This document shows, piece after piece, positions 18,160 through 64,000 of a stretch of DNA of 64,000 nt. The notes beneath the pieces are model-generated. The model was not told where the DNA came from. It saw only the letters and a list, made by a program, of their open reading frames with translations, and ran no database searches. Where the stretch lies: NCBI GenBank assembly GCA_946183785.1, contig CAMHCS010000014.1, positions 1 through 64,000 on the forward strand. Reading direction: 5' to 3'. How positions within the stretch are numbered: the first letter of the stretch is position 1; every line of letters starts with the position of its first letter. The translations under genes were made by a program, and so were the position numbers. Origin of the DNA: an uncultured Selenomonadales bacterium. GTDB taxonomy: Bacteria > Bacillota > Negativicutes > Selenomonadales > Selenomonadaceae.

Positions 18160-19023
18160 CTATATTATTTCTTCTTTATGCAACCGCTCCGCGATGCTCG
18201 TACCCGCCAGCGCCTTCATCAGCTTCTCGTCTCCCGCCTTTTCCTGTTGCAGCTTGCGCAGCTCGATGGCGACCAAGTCCAGCACTTTGTCGACGGCTCG
18301 GTAGACCTTGGCGCACTCCTCCGGCTGTACCTTCTGCGTGTAGAACGAGAGACGGCCTGTGCAGGTATCGCCACCTTTCGTCAGGCCGAAAAATATACGC
18401 TGCCGGTCTGCGTCAAAATCCCCGAAGGCGGCAATCTGCCCCAGCGCGTCGGCAAGTATTTCGTCGAGGGCATGATTTTGCATATCACCAAACAGCCGCA
18501 GTGTCTCATAATGGGCGCTCTCGTGGCGCCGCCGCAGCTGATGGGAACAATCCAGCCACTCCGTTTCGGGGAGCCCGAGCTTTTCGGAAGGAATATTACT
18601 GTAGAGCGCATAGTTCAGAAGCAGAACGCGATGGCGAAAGATTTTTTCCGCCCGCGCCTCGATCGTGAACGCGTTCACCGTCAGCGGCAGTTTCGATGCC
18701 TCTCCCCGAGCGTTCAACAGCGCTTCCATCTGCCGGAAATCCCTGTGGCTCTCCGTCGCAATAACGGGAAGCCGTCCTCCCAACGTATGCGCGAAGGAAA
18801 TATTCAGCGCGCCAGGATTTTCCCACTGGAAATCAAAGGCCGGGAGGCGCAGCACATCCGCCAGGAAATCCAGCGCCGACTGTCCGTCCGCCTCCTGCCA
18901 GCTTGCGGTGAATGGTTCGTCCGCCATCGGCAGATCCGGCAAGGCAGCCGGGATTCTGTATTTCCGCTGCAAATACTCGTCGGCGGATTGGCCTTGCATG
19001 GCCGCATGTTTTTTTTCGTCCAT
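18160..19023 (-). CDS. Unrecognised protein with HExxH...ExxxD motif
   Basis: 287 residues from MDEKKHAAMQGQ. The ATG has AGGAG 11 bases upstream; an upstream extension of 27 codons runs into the 19041 repeat and is rejected. I do not recognise the family. No signal peptide or membrane segment is evident. It contains HESAH at residues 167-171 and EILAD at 188-192, the HExxH plus ExxxD spacing typical of gluzincin metallopeptidases. Whether this is a zinc site is inference. The C-terminal 80 residues are predicted helical with many charged residues. It stands alone, separated by its own gap from the glucosaminidase operon. Confidence 0.75.
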   Translation of the reverse strand: MDEKKHAAMQGQSADEYLQRKYRIPAALPDLPMADEPFTASWQEADGQSALDFLADVLRLPAFDFQWENPGALNISFAHTLGGRLPVIATESHRDFRQMEALLNARGEASKLPLTVNAFTIEARAEKIFRHRVLLLNYALYSNIPSEKLGLPETEWLDCSHQLRRRHESAHYETLRLFGDMQNHALDEILADALGQIAAFGDFDADRQRIFFGLTKGGDTCTGRLSFYTQKVQPEECAKVYRAVDKVLDLVAIELRKLQQEKAGDEKLMKALAGTSIAERLHKEEII

Positions 19024-19040
19024 ATGAATCTTCTCTCCTT

Positions 19041-19206
19041 TAGGGAACCACTGAATAAGTCCCTCCGCGCCTCTGCCGGGTCTTTTTCCGCCTGTCGTCG
19101 TCAAATCCCTCTCGACGTAGCGATGCTACGCCTTCGAGGGCTTTTCCTAGACAGTCGAAAAAATCCCTCGACAGATGCACGAATTGACTTAATCAGTGTT
19201 TCCTTA
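19041..19206. repeat. 166-bp palindromic MITE-like element, copy 1
   Basis: The ends are imperfect inverted repeats of about 21 bases (TAGGGAACCACTGAATAAGT on the left, its counterpart ending CAGTGTTTCCTTA on the right), each beginning with TA. The interior is itself a long imperfect palindrome centred on GTAGCGATGCTAC. An equally long copy lies inverted at 60350-60515. There is no room for a protein. It lies just upstream of the gene at 18160-19023. The remainder of the 19024-19530 gap is AT-rich with the pckA terminator. Confidence 0.88.
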
Positions 19207-19457
19207 GGCAAAACGGATTCACGAAATGATTGATTCATTGACCTTTTTTATTATATATCATTTGATACACATACGCGACGCAAAAATGGACGCAAGACAT
19301 AAACAGACCAAACGCTCATCGCCCCGAAATCGCATTTTCTCATTGTTGCTCTTGATTCCCACAGAAATGAAACCACCTTGCACGTGAGATAAAAATTCGA
19401 CGGAGAGCAATACCCGGAGGACAGCGGCCAATCAAAAACTTTTCGATAAATAGTAAA

Positions 19458-58226: not shown

Positions 58227-60191
58227 TTATACCTTGAACTTGCCGGTCGCCGCTTGCAGCTCCGTCGCAAGATCCGCCAGCGAATGAGACGCCGAGGCGA
58301 TTTCCTGGCTCGACGCCGACTGCTCTTCCGCCGCCGCCGAGATTGTCTGGGTTTCCTCGCTGGTCGAGCGGCTGACCTCGTCGATGGTGTCCATCGCGCC
58401 GACGATGCCCTGCATGCCCTTCGACACCGTCTGCACCGCGTGATTGATTTCTCCCATCTCCGACTTGATCGACGCGACGCGAGCCGTGATATCCTGGAAC
58501 TGCTCGCCAACTTCACGGATTGCCTGCGTGCCGAGCGCGACTTCGTTCGTCCCGGCCTGCATCGCGACCACCGCCTCCTCGGTGTCGCCCTGGATGATCG
58601 CGATGCGGTTCTTGATTTCCTCTGCCGACTGCTGCGACTGCTCAGCCAGCTTGCGAACCTCTTCAGCAACGACCGAGAAGCCCCGGCCGGCCTCGCCCGC
58701 ACGCGCCGCCTCGATGGCCGCGTTCAGGGCGAGCAGGTTCGTCTGGTCGGCGATGGCCGAAATGCTTTCGACAATCTGCCCGATCTGCTTCGAGTTCTCG
58801 CCCAGCTTCTTGACGACTTCGGCAGAGTTCGCAACGCTTTGCTCGATGCCGCTCATTTTTTCCATTGCGTTATTCATCAGCTCCGCGCCATGATCGGCCG
58901 CGCCCGCCATCTGCTCGGTATTCTCTGTGACCGTCGCGGCTTTGTCCGTCATCGCGCTGATGTCGATAAACGCAGCGTCGATATGCTGCTTCGCGCCGTC
59001 AACGCTGTTGAGCTGCTTCTCCATGCCGCCCGAGACTTCAACAATCGTTTGCGCGACATGGGTCGCCGCTTCCGCCGCCTGCTGGGAACTGGCCGTCAGC
59101 TCCTCGGAGCTGGCCGCCACCTGCTCCGCCGTATGCGTCATCTGCGTAATCAGGCCGCGAATATTTTTCGTCATCGTATTGAACTGGTCCGACATCTGTC
59201 CAAACTCATCGCTGGACGTGACCGGCAGAGGCTCAAGACGCAAATTGCCCTGCGACATCTCGCCCATGTGGGCCACGAGGCCCTTGATCTGGTTCACGAT
59301 CGCGTTGGCGAAGAACAGCAGCGCAACCACGATCAGCACCACGCCGACTAGCGTCAGCACACTGTATATCATGCGCAGCTTCGAGACCTCGGCAAACACG
59401 AAGTCCTCGGGTACGCCCACCACCGTCATCCAGCCTGTGGAAGCCATGGATTCATAGGCGATGACCGTTCCGTTCGCGACGAAATAGCCGTTTTTCTTCT
59501 GCGCCATTTCGGCGATGTGCTCTTTCAGCACCGGATTGTCCGCAATCGGCTTCAGGTTTTCGTTCTCATCCGCCGACGCCAGGATCGTCCCAGACTCCGG
59601 GTTGATGATCAAGCCTTTGCCCTGTCCGTCAAACTTGATTTCCTTTGCCTTTTGGGAAAGGGTGTCCGTCTTGAACATGACGCCAATCACGCCGCCTGAC
59701 GCGCCCTGCCGCTTGTACGGGACGCCCGCCGCGCAGACCGTGTCCCCCGTCGTTTTCGAGACATACGGATCGCTGAACGCGAGCTTTCCCGCCTGCTGTG
59801 CTTTCAAATACCATGCGCGCTTCGTCCACTCGGCCTTGCCCGTCTGGTCGCCGCCATGGAGAGCCATCGTATAGCCGTTCTCCATGACATGCATCAGGTT
59901 CGTCATTTCCTTGTCGTCTGCAACCGCCTGCGTCAGGTTCTGGCTCCGCGCGTACGCCTCCTCCGACGCCGGGATATGAGAAACAATCGAAGCGACGCCT
60001 TGCGCCAGCTGCCCCTTCGCGAGCAGCCACGCCTCAGCCTCATTGGATTCCGCCTGGATCGTCGAGATGATTTCCTTTTCCACTGTCTCCTTCACTGCCG
60101 TCGACGCGGTGAAGTAACCTACAACGGAGACGATGGCCATGATAAGACCGGCCACGCCTGCCAGCGCGAAAAACTTTTGCTTGACATTCAT
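58227..60191 (-). CDS. Methyl-accepting chemotaxis protein 1 (dCache)
   Basis: 654 residues. Membrane segment 1 (about 7-30, [21 protein letters not shown]), a double-Cache periplasmic sensor to about 275 with [19 protein letters not shown], membrane segment 2 ([20 protein letters not shown]), HAMP, and a long signalling coiled coil with the conserved tip [20 protein letters not shown]. There is no C-terminal CheR tether. The ligand is unknown; Cache domains often bind amino or organic acids. ATG at 60189-60191 with GGAG ten bases upstream. Closely similar to the receptor at 62075-64000, so a local duplication. Confidence 0.95.
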
Positions 60192-60315
60192 ATGAGTTCC
60201 GCTCCTTCCTTTTTGCATATCCTTATAATAAATTCATTATCTTCTATGCAGGGTTATTTGTCAAGCAGTAATAAGTTTTATAAGGCTATCTACCTATTTT
60301 TTCAGAAAACAACAT

Positions 60316-60341
60316 AAAAAGAGGCGCAGGAAGGCGCCTCT
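60316..60341 (-). terminator. Terminator upstream of chemoreceptor 1, orphaned
   Basis: AGAGGCGC (60320-60327) pairs with GCGCCTCT (60334-60341); five T residues follow on the minus strand. No intact minus-strand gene precedes it before the chemoreceptor remnant at 60530-60604, so it probably belonged to that lost gene. Confidence 0.8.
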
Positions 60342-60349
60342 CTCATTTC

Positions 60350-60515
60350 TAAGGAAGCACTGATTAAGTCAAGTCGTGGCCCTGTCGAGGGATTTTTTCG
60401 TCAGGCAAGGAAAAGTGCTCGAAGTCGTAGCAGAGCTACGTCGAGAGCACTTTGACGCAGCATGACGGAAAAAGACCCGTCAGGGGCGCGGCGGGACTTA
60501 TTCAGTGCTTCCCTA
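60350..60515. repeat. 166-bp palindromic MITE-like element, copy 2 (inverted)
   Basis: Same length as copy 1 at 19041-19206 and alignable to it in inverted orientation throughout. The ends TAAGGAAGCACTGATTAAGT and the complement of TAGGGAAGCACTGAATAAGT are inverted repeats. The central stem arms are GTGCTC/GAGCAC, where copy 1 has CCCTC/GAGGG at the same place. It lies between the orphan terminator and the chemoreceptor remnant. The rest of the 60192-60763 gap holds these items and the promoter of the cyclase gene. Confidence 0.88.
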
Positions 60516-60529
60516 ATAGTATGATATGA

Positions 60530-60604
60530 TACTTTGAATTTGCCTGTCGCCGTTTGCAGTTTCGTCGCAGCGTCCGCCAACGGATGGGACGCCAGCGCCA
60601 TCTC
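60530..60604 (-). pseudogene. Remnant of a chemoreceptor 3' end
   Basis: On the minus strand 25 codons read EMALASHPLADAATKLQTAT then GKFKV, identical at 19 of 25 positions to the C-terminus of the two intact receptors beside it. Upstream sequence is unrelated. The expected TAA after GKFKV is TCA. This is the leftover of a third receptor copy. Confidence 0.8.
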
Positions 60605-60682: not shown

Positions 60683-60763
60683 ATTTAAGTGATGATATGC
60701 GTGTCCTTCGAGATTCCCATATGATTCTTGCAAGATATATCTCTTGTTCCGAGGAGCAATCGT

Positions 60764-62002
60764 ATGTACTACTCTGCAATCGGACTGCTTGCTATCGCTA
60801 TCCTCCTGATTGAAAATCACGATATTTTTTTTGATCGCAGCGACAGCCAGCATATCCCCGCCATTGGGCTGTACAGGAAATTATTATACTGCATTCTTCT
60901 ATACTATACCACGGATGTGCTCTGGGGCGTCCTTGACAGCCTGCATCTTATCTTTCCCCTTTTCCTTGAGACCATGATCCATTTTATCGCGATGATTTCG
61001 GGCGTACTGCTTTGGACGCAATACGTGGTCGCTTATTTGGCCGAGGAAAACGCTTTCAGTCGATTTCTGTCCTATGCGGGACGCATCTTCTTTGCTGTGT
61101 TTTTGGCGATCGATATCTTTAACTGTTTCACGCCGGTCCTGTTCTGGATTGATGAAAGCGGCGCCTATCATGCCAACACTGCCAGATACGCGCTGCTTCT
61201 GTTCCAAATCGCGCTGTTCCTGCTCGCTTCCATTCATACGTTTTATGCCATGTCGCGGACGGAAAGCGCAACAAAAAAACGGTATCGGACAATCTGTCTG
61301 TTTGGTCTGACGATGGCGGTCATGCTTTCCATCCAATTATATTATCCTTTGCTCCCGCTTTACTCCATCGGATACATGCTTGGGACTTCTCTGCTGCACG
61401 CCTTTGTAGTCGCCGACGAAAAGGACGAATACAAATACGAGCTGGCGGCCTCCCTGCTGCGGGAAAAAAGGCAGCATGAGCAGCTGAGATCCGCATGGCA
61501 GCTTGCCTATACCGATTCCCTCACCGGACTGAAAAACAAGCTGGCTTATATTGAAGCGGAGGAACAAAAAGACCGTCTGATTGCGAAACGGGAAGCTCCG
61601 CAATTTTCAATTGCGGTCTTTGATCTGAACGATCTGAAATCCGTCAATGACCGCATGGGGCACGAGATGGGCGACCAATACATCGTCCGCGCGTCCAGGA
61701 TTATTTGCACCCATTTCAAGTTCAGCCCCGTCTTCCGCACCGGCGGCGATGAATTTGTCGTCCTGTTGGAAGGAACGGACTACCAAAACAGAGTCGATCT
61801 GAAAGAACGCTTTGACCGAATGATAACGTCGCCCGATTATGATCAGGACATGATTATCGCCATGGGGATGGCCGATTTCAATCCGGAGCAGGACAGCGCC
61901 TTCAACCAGGTCTTTGAGCGGGCAGACCGGAAAATGTATCTGCGCAAATGGGAATTGAAGAACAACCGGAGAAGTTCCTCCCAAACGGCAGCGCAGGAAT
62001 AA
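60764..62002 (+). CDS. Membrane diguanylate cyclase (GGDEF)
   Basis: 412 residues. Six or seven hydrophobic segments fill residues 1-215. A short coiled linker (LLREKRQHEQLRSAWQLAYTDS) leads to a GGDEF domain with DSLTGLKNK, FDLNDLKSVND and an intact RTGGDEF loop. The RxxD inhibitory site expected five residues before GGDEF is absent, so product inhibition through it is unlikely. ATG with GAGGAG seven bases upstream. It lies between two chemoreceptors on the other strand, suggesting a motility-related module. Confidence 0.93.
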   Translation: MYYSAIGLLAIAILLIENHDIFFDRSDSQHIPAIGLYRKLLYCILLYYTTDVLWGVLDSLHLIFPLFLETMIHFIAMISGVLLWTQYVVAYLAEENAFSRFLSYAGRIFFAVFLAIDIFNCFTPVLFWIDESGAYHANTARYALLLFQIALFLLASIHTFYAMSRTESATKKRYRTICLFGLTMAVMLSIQLYYPLLPLYSIGYMLGTSLLHAFVVADEKDEYKYELAASLLREKRQHEQLRSAWQLAYTDSLTGLKNKLAYIEAEEQKDRLIAKREAPQFSIAVFDLNDLKSVNDRMGHEMGDQYIVRASRIICTHFKFSPVFRTGGDEFVVLLEGTDYQNRVDLKERFDRMITSPDYDQDMIIAMGMADFNPEQDSAFNQVFERADRKMYLRKWELKNNRRSSSQTAAQE

Positions 62003-62074: not shown

Positions 62075-64000
62075 TTACACCTTGAACTTGCCGGTAGCGT
62101 CCTGCAGCTCCGCCGCGAGATCCGCCAGCGAATGGGACGCCGACGCGATTTCCTGGCTTGAAGCCGACTGCTCTTCCGCCGCCGCCGAGATTGTCTGCGT
62201 TTCCTCGCTTGTCGCCCGGCTGACCTCGTCGATGGTATCCATCGCGCCGACGACGCTCTGCATGCCGTTCGAAACGGTCTGCACTTCGCGGTTGATCTCT
62301 TTCATTTCCGTCTTGATGGAGGCCACCCGCGCCGTGATGTCCTGGAACTGCTCGCCTACTTCGCGGATTGCCTGCGTGCCCAGAGCCACTTCGTTGGTTC
62401 CGGCCTCCATCGCAACAACCGCTTCCTCCGTGTCGCCCTGGATTACCGTAATACGCTGTTTGATTTCTTCAGCCGACTGCTGCGACTGCTCGGCAAGCTT
62501 TCTGACCTCTTCCGCCACGACGGAGAACCCGCGCCCCGCCTCGCCCGCGCGCGCCGCTTCGATGGCCGCGTTCAGCGCGAGGAGGTTCGTCTGGTCGGCG
62601 ATCGCAGAAATGCTCTCGACGATCTGTCCGATCTGTTTCGAATTCTCGCCGAGCTTTTTGACGACCTGCGCCGAATTCGAGACGCTCTGCTCGATGCCGT
62701 TCATCTTGTCCATCGCGTTTCGCATGAGCTCCGCGCCGTGATCTGCCGCACCCGCCATCTGCTCAGTGTTCTCGGTGACCGTCGCCGCTTTTTCCGTCAT
62801 CGCGTTGATGTCTATAAACGCCGCATCAATACTTTGCTTAGCCGTATCGACGCTGTTGAGCTGCTTGTCCATGCCGCCCGATACTTCGGTCACGGTCTGC
62901 GCGACGTGCATTGCAGCCTCCGCCGCTTGCTGGGAGCTGGCCGTCAACTCTTCGGAACTTGCCGCGACCTGCTCCGAGCTGTGCATCATTTGCTGGATCA
63001 GACCGCGGATATTCTTGCTCATATTGTTGAAGCCCGTCGCCATCTGGCCAAACTCGTCATCGGAGTCCACAGCCAACGGCTCCAGACGCAGGTTACCGTC
63101 GGCCATTTGATTGATATGCCCCGTCAGCGTAACGACCTGCTTCACGATGCCGTTGGAGAAGAAAATCAGCGCCGCAGCGATCAGCACGACGCCGACCACC
63201 GTCAGCGCGCCGTACATGATCTTGAGCTTCGCGATCTCCGCGAAGACGAAGTCCGTCGGCACGGAAATCGCCGAGATCCAGCCCGTCGAATCCATAGTCG
63301 CATAAGCGACCACGCGCTCCTGCCCGTTCGCGTTCGACAGGAAATAGCCTTTCTTCTGCTGTGCCATTTCCGCGATCTTGTCCTTCAGCACCGCATTGTC
63401 CGAAATCTTCTTCAGCGTCTCCTCATCATTGGCCGACGCGATGACGACGCCCGTCGCCGGGTTCAGGATCATCCCCTTGCCTTCGCCTTCATACTTCAGC
63501 CTCTTGACCAGCTCGCCGATGGCCGTCATATCGAGGTCCTCGCAGATGACGCCGCCCTCTGCGCCCTGCCGGGCGTAAGGCACCGCCGCCGTGATGCAGA
63601 GTTTCTTTGTCGAGGTATCAATATACGGGTCAGTAAAAATCAGCTTTCCCGCTTTTTTTGCGCCCACGAACCATTCGCGCTTCGTCCATTCCGCATCCTT
63701 GGTGATGTCGCCTTCGGCATAGGACACGCAGTAGCCGCTGTCCGTCGCATGGGTGATGTCGATGATGTCCTTGTCGCCCTTGTAGGTCGCCGTCATTTCC
63801 TTGCGCCGCACGATCGCGTTGTCCTGCGCGGAAAACGAGCTGAGCATCCGGGCCGTCGATTCGCCGTACTGCGCCTTTTTGAGCAGCCAGCCCTCCGCCT
63901 CGCTGGAGGCGGCCGTGATTACCGCGACGATCTGCTTTTCCGTCGTGTTCTCCACCGCTTCCGACGCCGTGAAATACCCGACAACCGAAACGATCGCCAT
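62075..64000 (-). CDS. Methyl-accepting chemotaxis protein 2 (dCache), cut at window edge
   Basis: 641 codons visible; comparison with receptor 1 suggests that about 17 N-terminal residues lie outside the window. Same plan: membrane segment, double-Cache sensor with [20 protein letters not shown], second membrane segment, HAMP, and signalling domain with the identical [20 protein letters not shown] tip and C-terminus GKFKV. The sensor domain is much more divergent from receptor 1 than the signalling half, which fits duplication followed by change of ligand. Confidence 0.95.

Follow-up and report, generated by a model that had tools for sequence, protein, structure and literature searches.

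A 160-bp MITE whose core is conserved as a strand-specific fold across many bacterial genera

MITEs are usually seen as passive DNA with two useful ends. The bcr1 repeat of the Bacillus cereus group, a mobile repeat of ~155 bp, has a predicted RNA structure. In Streptococcus pneumoniae, passages of one study describe BOX, RUP and SPRITE as interspersed repeats that share features of MITEs, whose RNA is predicted to be strongly structured and which have copies co-transcribed with genes; they are reported for the pneumococcus, are less frequent in S. mitis and are very rare in other streptococci (PMC3049150). The mobile repeats Correia/NEMIS and ERIC give rise to folded transcripts that are processed by RNase III or RNase E, according to excerpts of PMC10969869, and QMITE1 and QMITE2 from Coxiella burnetii are introduced in part of PMC5896051 as MITEs with stable predicted RNA folds, some of which are expressed as small RNAs. 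A structured RNA is also combined with a DNA transposon in the IStrons, as set out in sections of PMC4227781.

Here we analysed a window of 64,000 nucleotides from an uncultured Selenomonadales bacterium (contig CAMHCS010000014.1, positions 1 to 64,000), in which two copies of an imperfectly palindromic repeat had been noticed, one near 60 kb (copy 2 of the original prediction) and one near 19 kb (copy 1), both of which we delimited by BLAST within the window (Table 1). The repeat is a 160-bp MITE, a non-autonomous mobile element: it is short, contains no gene, ends in terminal inverted repeats and is flanked by a target-site duplication. Its own genome holds at least ~80 copies among the matches listed for two BLAST queries, in two MITE subfamilies, and the terminal repeats recur there in 110 forward and 119 reverse matches (229 with up to 2 mismatches; reversed control, 0). 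From the own genome and its relatives we collected hits that span 130 nt or more and are complete at their ends, which reduced from 234 places through 218 to 184 copies distinct by sequence and flanks; 127 of these measure exactly 160 bp, and 111 are bordered by an exact duplication of 4 bp (TTAA 64, TTTA 13, CTAA 10, TTAG 8, others), a YTAR-like target.

Table 1. Coordinates of the element, its parts and its further copies in the window
Feature	Position	Strand	Basis or remark
Target-site duplication CTAA, left	60349..60352	.	Sequence
MITE copy under study, 160 bp	60353..60512	+	Sequence, BLAST
Left terminal inverted repeat GGAAGCACTGATTAAGTC, 18 bp	60353..60370	+	Own-genome terminal-repeat matches
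Structured core, ~105 nt	60379..60483	+	Covariance model R1: 120.2 bits on +, 35.9 bits on -
Lower stem, 60382-60390 with 60476-60483	60382..60483	+	Two-sided changes in 8/8 pairs (A4)
Stem P1, 60393-60406 with 60460-60473	60393..60473	+	Two-sided changes in 13/13 pairs (A4)
Internal loop A, 5' side, consensus AAGGA or AAGGC	60407..60411	+	Faces 60454-60459; non-canonical G.A and A.G/C.A pairs
Stem P2, 60412-60420 with 60445-60453	60412..60453	+	Contains compensated pairs 60416/60449 and 60417/60448
Internal loop B, 5' side, GAA or GCA	60421..60423	+	Faces 60443-60444
Apical stem P3, 60424-60431 with 60435-60442, 3-nt loop	60424..60442	+	Alignments of 27 and 59 sequences
Right terminal inverted repeat, 18 bp	60495..60512	-	Own-genome terminal-repeat matches
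Target-site duplication CTAA, right	60513..60516	.	Sequence
Second full MITE copy, second subfamily	19044..19203	-	Core 19073-19177; CTAA (own strand) at 19040-19043 and 19204-19207
Decayed copy without P2 and P3	40612..40673	-	R1 37.3 bits

The surroundings of the copies offered several observations of their own. A terminator-like GC-rich hairpin followed by T's lies on the minus strand (60317-60344), where it separates the 60-kb MITE from the beginning of the minus-strand ORF 58227-60218. This ORF and the minus-strand ORF 62075-64000 are similar to each other and flank the plus-strand ORF 60728-62002; the products of the two similar ORFs resemble methyl-accepting chemotaxis proteins, and the end of the third is GGDEF-like. 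The 19-kb copy stops a few bases ahead of AGGAG and an ATG on the same strand (19020-19043), so that its fold would lie in a 5' untranslated region if this ATG is a gene start. Just past the window, at locus L205 (51-377) of the same genome, MITEs of both subfamilies stand head to tail with one TTAA common to both, as if the duplication of one had served as target for the other.

Searching 13 genomes for PF01609, we recognised autonomous elements with matching ends in two (G012 and G001), together with a fragment in G196; in the remaining genomes of this set no autonomous relative was recognised. The first element, L336, spans 1263 bp, is flanked by a TTAA duplication and has a terminal repeat that resembles the MITEs of its genome, and its protein contains PF01609 (DDE_Tnp_1) and PF05598 (DUF772) and scores 318 bits against NCBIfam transpos_IS5_4 (cut-off 140); the second, L338, spans 1225 bp, is flanked by TAAA and has ends that match the MITE. 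YTAR is the target of IS5, and the MITE thus combines a YTAR-like target with a family transposase whose ends match its own, as expected of an IS5-mobilised element. Neither L336 nor L338 gave a match to R1, the covariance model of the core described below, and the terminal repeats are all that they have in common with the MITE, which is therefore not an internal-deletion derivative of these relatives; such an origin is not obligatory for MITEs. The absence of the core from both elements leaves a direct link between core and transposition conjectural. We also considered locus L354 as an IS that carries the core at its end and rejected it, since the sequence at 1009-2017 shows an IS5-like fragment, with TTCA at its left end, and a MITE inserted alongside that has TTCA on both sides.

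Near-identical copies occur in different genera (97.6% over 168 bp; L041 of g3 and L245 of g46, L306 of g41 and L310 of g32), with the match limited to the element. The terminal repeats vary by lineage, for example GGAACCGCTGATTA, TACTCTGTAAAC and a GTGTCTGAAAACTC type, in a comparison that covered loci of sufficient length with a placeable match position. A plasmid collection gave no match for two queries, and part of the core is present at 78% in phage record MT836562.1 (4239-4326), an unannotated 'Bacteriophage sp.' from human faeces.

The original prediction concerned the centre of the repeat, where CCCTC paired with GAGGG in one copy was aligned with TGCTC paired with GAGCA in the other, and we confirmed that two stem pairs are altered on both sides with pairing kept. 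At element pair 64/97, C-G in the 19-kb copy corresponds to T-A in the 60-kb copy (60416/60449), and at pair 65/96 C-G in the former corresponds to G-C in the latter (60417/60448). The original prediction passed over the adjacent pair 63/98, which is G-C at 60 kb and a G.A mismatch at 19 kb. The comparison thus comprises two compensated pairs and one broken pair, and by themselves two copies prove little.

We therefore extended the comparison to the genus, using BLAST copies gathered with no structural criterion: among 134 distinct copies, 78 are exactly 160 nt long, and removal of a misaligned one left 77 that align without gaps. By parsimony, the interior of these 77 copies has undergone 23.4 two-sided, pair-preserving changes at palindrome register 161 and 7.8 at the neighbouring register 162, which also occurs in the fold, compared to at most 2.6 at 18 other registers. 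A stricter all-pairs test of the same 77 copies against a tree-based null returned 6 pairs at E<0.05, of which 4 belong to the RNAalifold structure, and the genus-level signal is accordingly strong in aggregate and moderate pair by pair.

Searches with the element revealed homologues beyond the genus, and some of them belong to another family within the class. In 27 sequences, picked by BLAST and a sequence motif and aligned with MAFFT, 94.2% of the cells in the proposed fold are paired (36.8-51.9% when one side is slid), 23 of the 39 pairs show two-sided change (8-11 slid) and covariation amounts to 0.361 (at most 0.080 slid). With a per-genome cut-off of E <= 1e-4, the covariance model R1, built from this alignment, detected the core in 79 of the 189 genomes searched for the order, in 117 of 380 for the class and in 9 of the 398 that sample the phylum. 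The best 96 of 116 model matches (the rest scored lower and lay mostly on the reverse strand) were thinned to 61 below 88% identity, and two short ones were dropped, leaving 59 divergent copies (alignment A4; A1 and A4 are MAFFT alignments, A2 and A3 model-guided). In A4, 90.7% of the cells are paired compared to 39.4-50.8% when slid, a percentage biased upward by the use of a structure-containing model to find the sequences, a bias from which the 77-copy and 27-sequence sets are free. All 39 pairs in A4 show two-sided changes, with 487 two-sided cells (83-136 slid) and a covariation of 0.586 (at most 0.140 slid), and none of 500 shuffles reached any of these measures.

A covariation test on larger alignments had been proposed with the original prediction, and our home-made, R-scape-like version, run on the 59 copies against a tree null, bears it out: of 4851 column pairs, it picked out 19 at E<0.05, and 18 of these lie in the proposed fold, which has 37 testable pairs. 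The nineteenth is a non-canonical A.G/C.A exchange in a conserved internal loop. Covariation thus exceeds the phylogenetic null, as in a structured RNA family, and the suggestion of selection on the fold is supported far beyond two copies. Independent support came from the terminal repeats, which lie outside the R1 model: at 16 of 57 testable divergent loci, an inverted repeat of 12 nt flanked by a perfect 4-bp duplication occupies the expected place, compared to 1 of 308 shifted positions. At the gathering thresholds of Rfam 15, the window gave one tRNA only and 20 homologous loci gave one unrelated tmRNA, and positions 60300-60560, searched up to an E value of 10, gave weak unrelated hits below gathering; the element thus matches no family of this library. 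A form of the element without P2 and P3, in which loop A closes directly as CAAGGAATGACGCAG, is present at L042 (2172-2294), and L312 holds a similar short form.

The fold has a polarity. On the element's plus strand, the 59 copies contain 192 G.T (G.U) cells and 45 A.C cells, with slid registers giving 9-21% and 6-17% of cells, respectively; this excess of G.U over A.C indicates that the fold of one strand is favoured. In all 134 distinct copies, the fold of the plus strand is better than that of the complement, and the core in the window has a folding z-score of -6.55 on the plus strand and -3.65 on the minus strand. Such polarity speaks against a cruciform and in favour of RNA or single-stranded DNA of one defined strand. 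Of the readings offered initially, a single-strand fold fits best; from a symmetric DNA cruciform one would expect neither the G.T excess nor the better folding of the plus strand. We conclude that the selected form is most likely RNA, with strand-specific single-stranded DNA possible and a DNA cruciform disfavoured. Two internal loops are conserved between the stems: in loop A, G58.A103 is found in 54 of 59 copies and the next pair, 59/102, is A.G in 42, C.A in 15 and A.A in 2, while in loop B pair 69/92 is G.A in 47 of 59 and pair 70/91 is A.G in 20 and C.A in 16. Conserved loops amid changing stems are the pattern that a recognised three-dimensional RNA motif would show.

Next, we sought to clarify where selection acts, counting as variants all pair types other than the commonest one. 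Private variants are G.T or A.C about equally often (12 vs 12 in the genus set, 10 vs 12 in G287, 22:24 pooled), whereas shared variants favour G.T (19 vs 8, 9 vs 2, 28:10 pooled), a contrast with a pooled Fisher p of 0.025 and of 0.16 and 0.07 in the separate sets, neither of which is significant. The contrast was not seen between terminal and internal tree branches, perhaps because terminal branches include long ones. Since the G.U bias is found in shared variants and not in private mutations, selection seems to act on propagating lineages, with resident copies decaying freely and appearing unconstrained. No copy lies inside a gene predicted by simple codon usage, either in a first set (0/59, the copies with enough flank among the 184) or in G287, G203 and G259 (0/68), and the orientation of copies relative to neighbouring genes is balanced (tandem pairs, 37 vs 34). 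The lack of an orientation preference gives no support for a role in host mRNAs, and we dismissed host-gene regulation as the main cause of conservation, as neither orientation nor position of the copies spoke for it. Domestication was likewise rejected: among 27 loci in genomes with one or few copies, only the close species G174 and G175 have both flanks in common, and matches at the other loci extend no further than the element or involve individual proteins that are arranged differently.

Based on these results, we consider it probable that the repeat is a MITE moved in trans by IS5-family transposases, with a ~105-nt core that acts as a folded single strand, most likely in read-through RNA. 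An IS5-family transposase would act in trans on the terminal inverted repeats, while the core would work as a folded single strand of defined polarity, presumably as RNA in transcripts that read through the element. A consensus scan detected no promoter-like site inside the element, so transcription of the core is an assumption of this model. The conserved internal loops may be recognised by a partner. The ends, where the transposase is expected to act, diverge while the core loops stay constant, which makes the transposase a poorer candidate for this partner than some widely conserved host factor. Such recognition could help the element to propagate or to be tolerated.

Other explanations account for part of these data. 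Folded single-stranded DNA of one polarity, for example a hairpin bound by a replication or recombination protein on an exposed strand, would explain polarity, conserved loops and covariation as well as RNA does and agrees with the lack of a promoter-like site and of an orientation bias relative to genes; we nevertheless regard it as unlikely, as the element has the mobility hallmarks of a DDE transposon that moves as double strand and duplicates 4 bp of its target, a route with no known stage of folded single-stranded DNA. Selection might instead operate on the element in its double-stranded form, through either a cruciform or protein-binding half-sites that occur as a pair, and terminal repeats must indeed match for transposition, with some terminal pairs covarying (9/152, E 0.033). 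This proposal is very improbable in our judgement, given that significant covariation fills the interior, that each internal loop has different sequences on its two sides and that a cruciform, which exposes both strands, should tolerate G.T and A.C equally. We give still less credence to arm-to-arm copying, the gene-conversion-like process put forward in the original prediction, in which template switching in an imperfect palindrome writes one change into both arms with no selection. Such copying is known in bacteria, the element is nearly palindromic and the two changed pairs of the 60-kb/19-kb comparison are neighbours, but copying would erase what we observed: purine mismatches that stay nearly invariant between freely changing stems (59/102 is A.G or C.A in 57 of 59), one-sided G.T states that are common and favoured over A.C, and a non-complementary A.G to C.A exchange that covaries significantly.

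A further explanation is that the fold mainly renders insertions harmless, for instance by acting in transcripts as an insulator, a terminator or a site for an RNase, a role suggested for other MITEs. The absence of copies from predicted genes in both sets fits this explanation, as do the processing of Correia and ERIC transcripts by RNase III or RNase E reported in excerpts of PMC10969869 and the description of IStrons, in sections of PMC4227781, as harmless through an RNA. A plain hairpin would be enough for this purpose, yet the internal-loop nucleotides are conserved across the phylum sample, and the copies show no orientation preference; the terminator version was rejected because the candidate T tract is replaced by other sequence in some lineages (L297, L305). 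We judge this explanation to be quite unlikely.

Returning to the MITE with a core acting as a folded single strand, one extension is that the core is a selfish RNA hitchhiking on DNA transposons, whose folded transcript would bind a conserved partner in the cell, such as ribosome-associated or replication machinery, and in this way deliver the element either to an IS5-family transposase that is still nascent or to a favourable site. We offer this as a speculation that is rather unlikely to hold. If true, it would represent a bacterial counterpart of SINEs exploiting LINEs: a DDE enzyme would carry out transposition with the help of an RNA, and this one RNA would be handed on between elements whose terminal repeats differ. 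In this MITE the middle remains recognisable as a fold with non-canonical pairs and the ends change among lineages, which points to an unrecognised, selected single-strand step in the life of a DNA transposon, and the 105-nt core provides a defined module with natural compensatory variants for testing that step.

We found no description of the present element in open-licence PMC papers. Like IS5-mobilised bacterial MITEs, it is defined by its size, terminal inverted repeats, 4-bp duplications, intergenic copies and an autonomous IS5-family element with the same ends; unlike in these, its interior is a conserved structured module rather than a leftover of the autonomous element, common to elements with different ends across many genera. 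It differs from bcr1 in target duplication and host group, a distinction drawn from description rather than sequence comparison. IStrons consist of a group I intron with IS200/IS605 or IS607 genes, according to sections of PMC4227781, whereas the present element measures ~160 nt and has no gene; we rejected an IStron identity because Rfam searches gave no intron-family match and no gene lies within the 160 bp. For QMITE1 and QMITE2, described in one species, PMC5896051 contains no words on covariation or compensatory change, and the word stem compensat- is absent from PMC3049150 on BOX, RUP and SPRITE, whereas the present core is shared between genera and between families and withstands a covariation test. 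Relative to Correia/NEMIS and ERIC, as portrayed in excerpts of PMC10969869, the new points are the conserved internal-loop motifs and the phylum-wide distribution. RNA-folding MITEs are thus already known, as BOX, Correia, ERIC and QMITE illustrate, and what sets the present element apart is a phylum-wide conserved core with non-canonical covariation.
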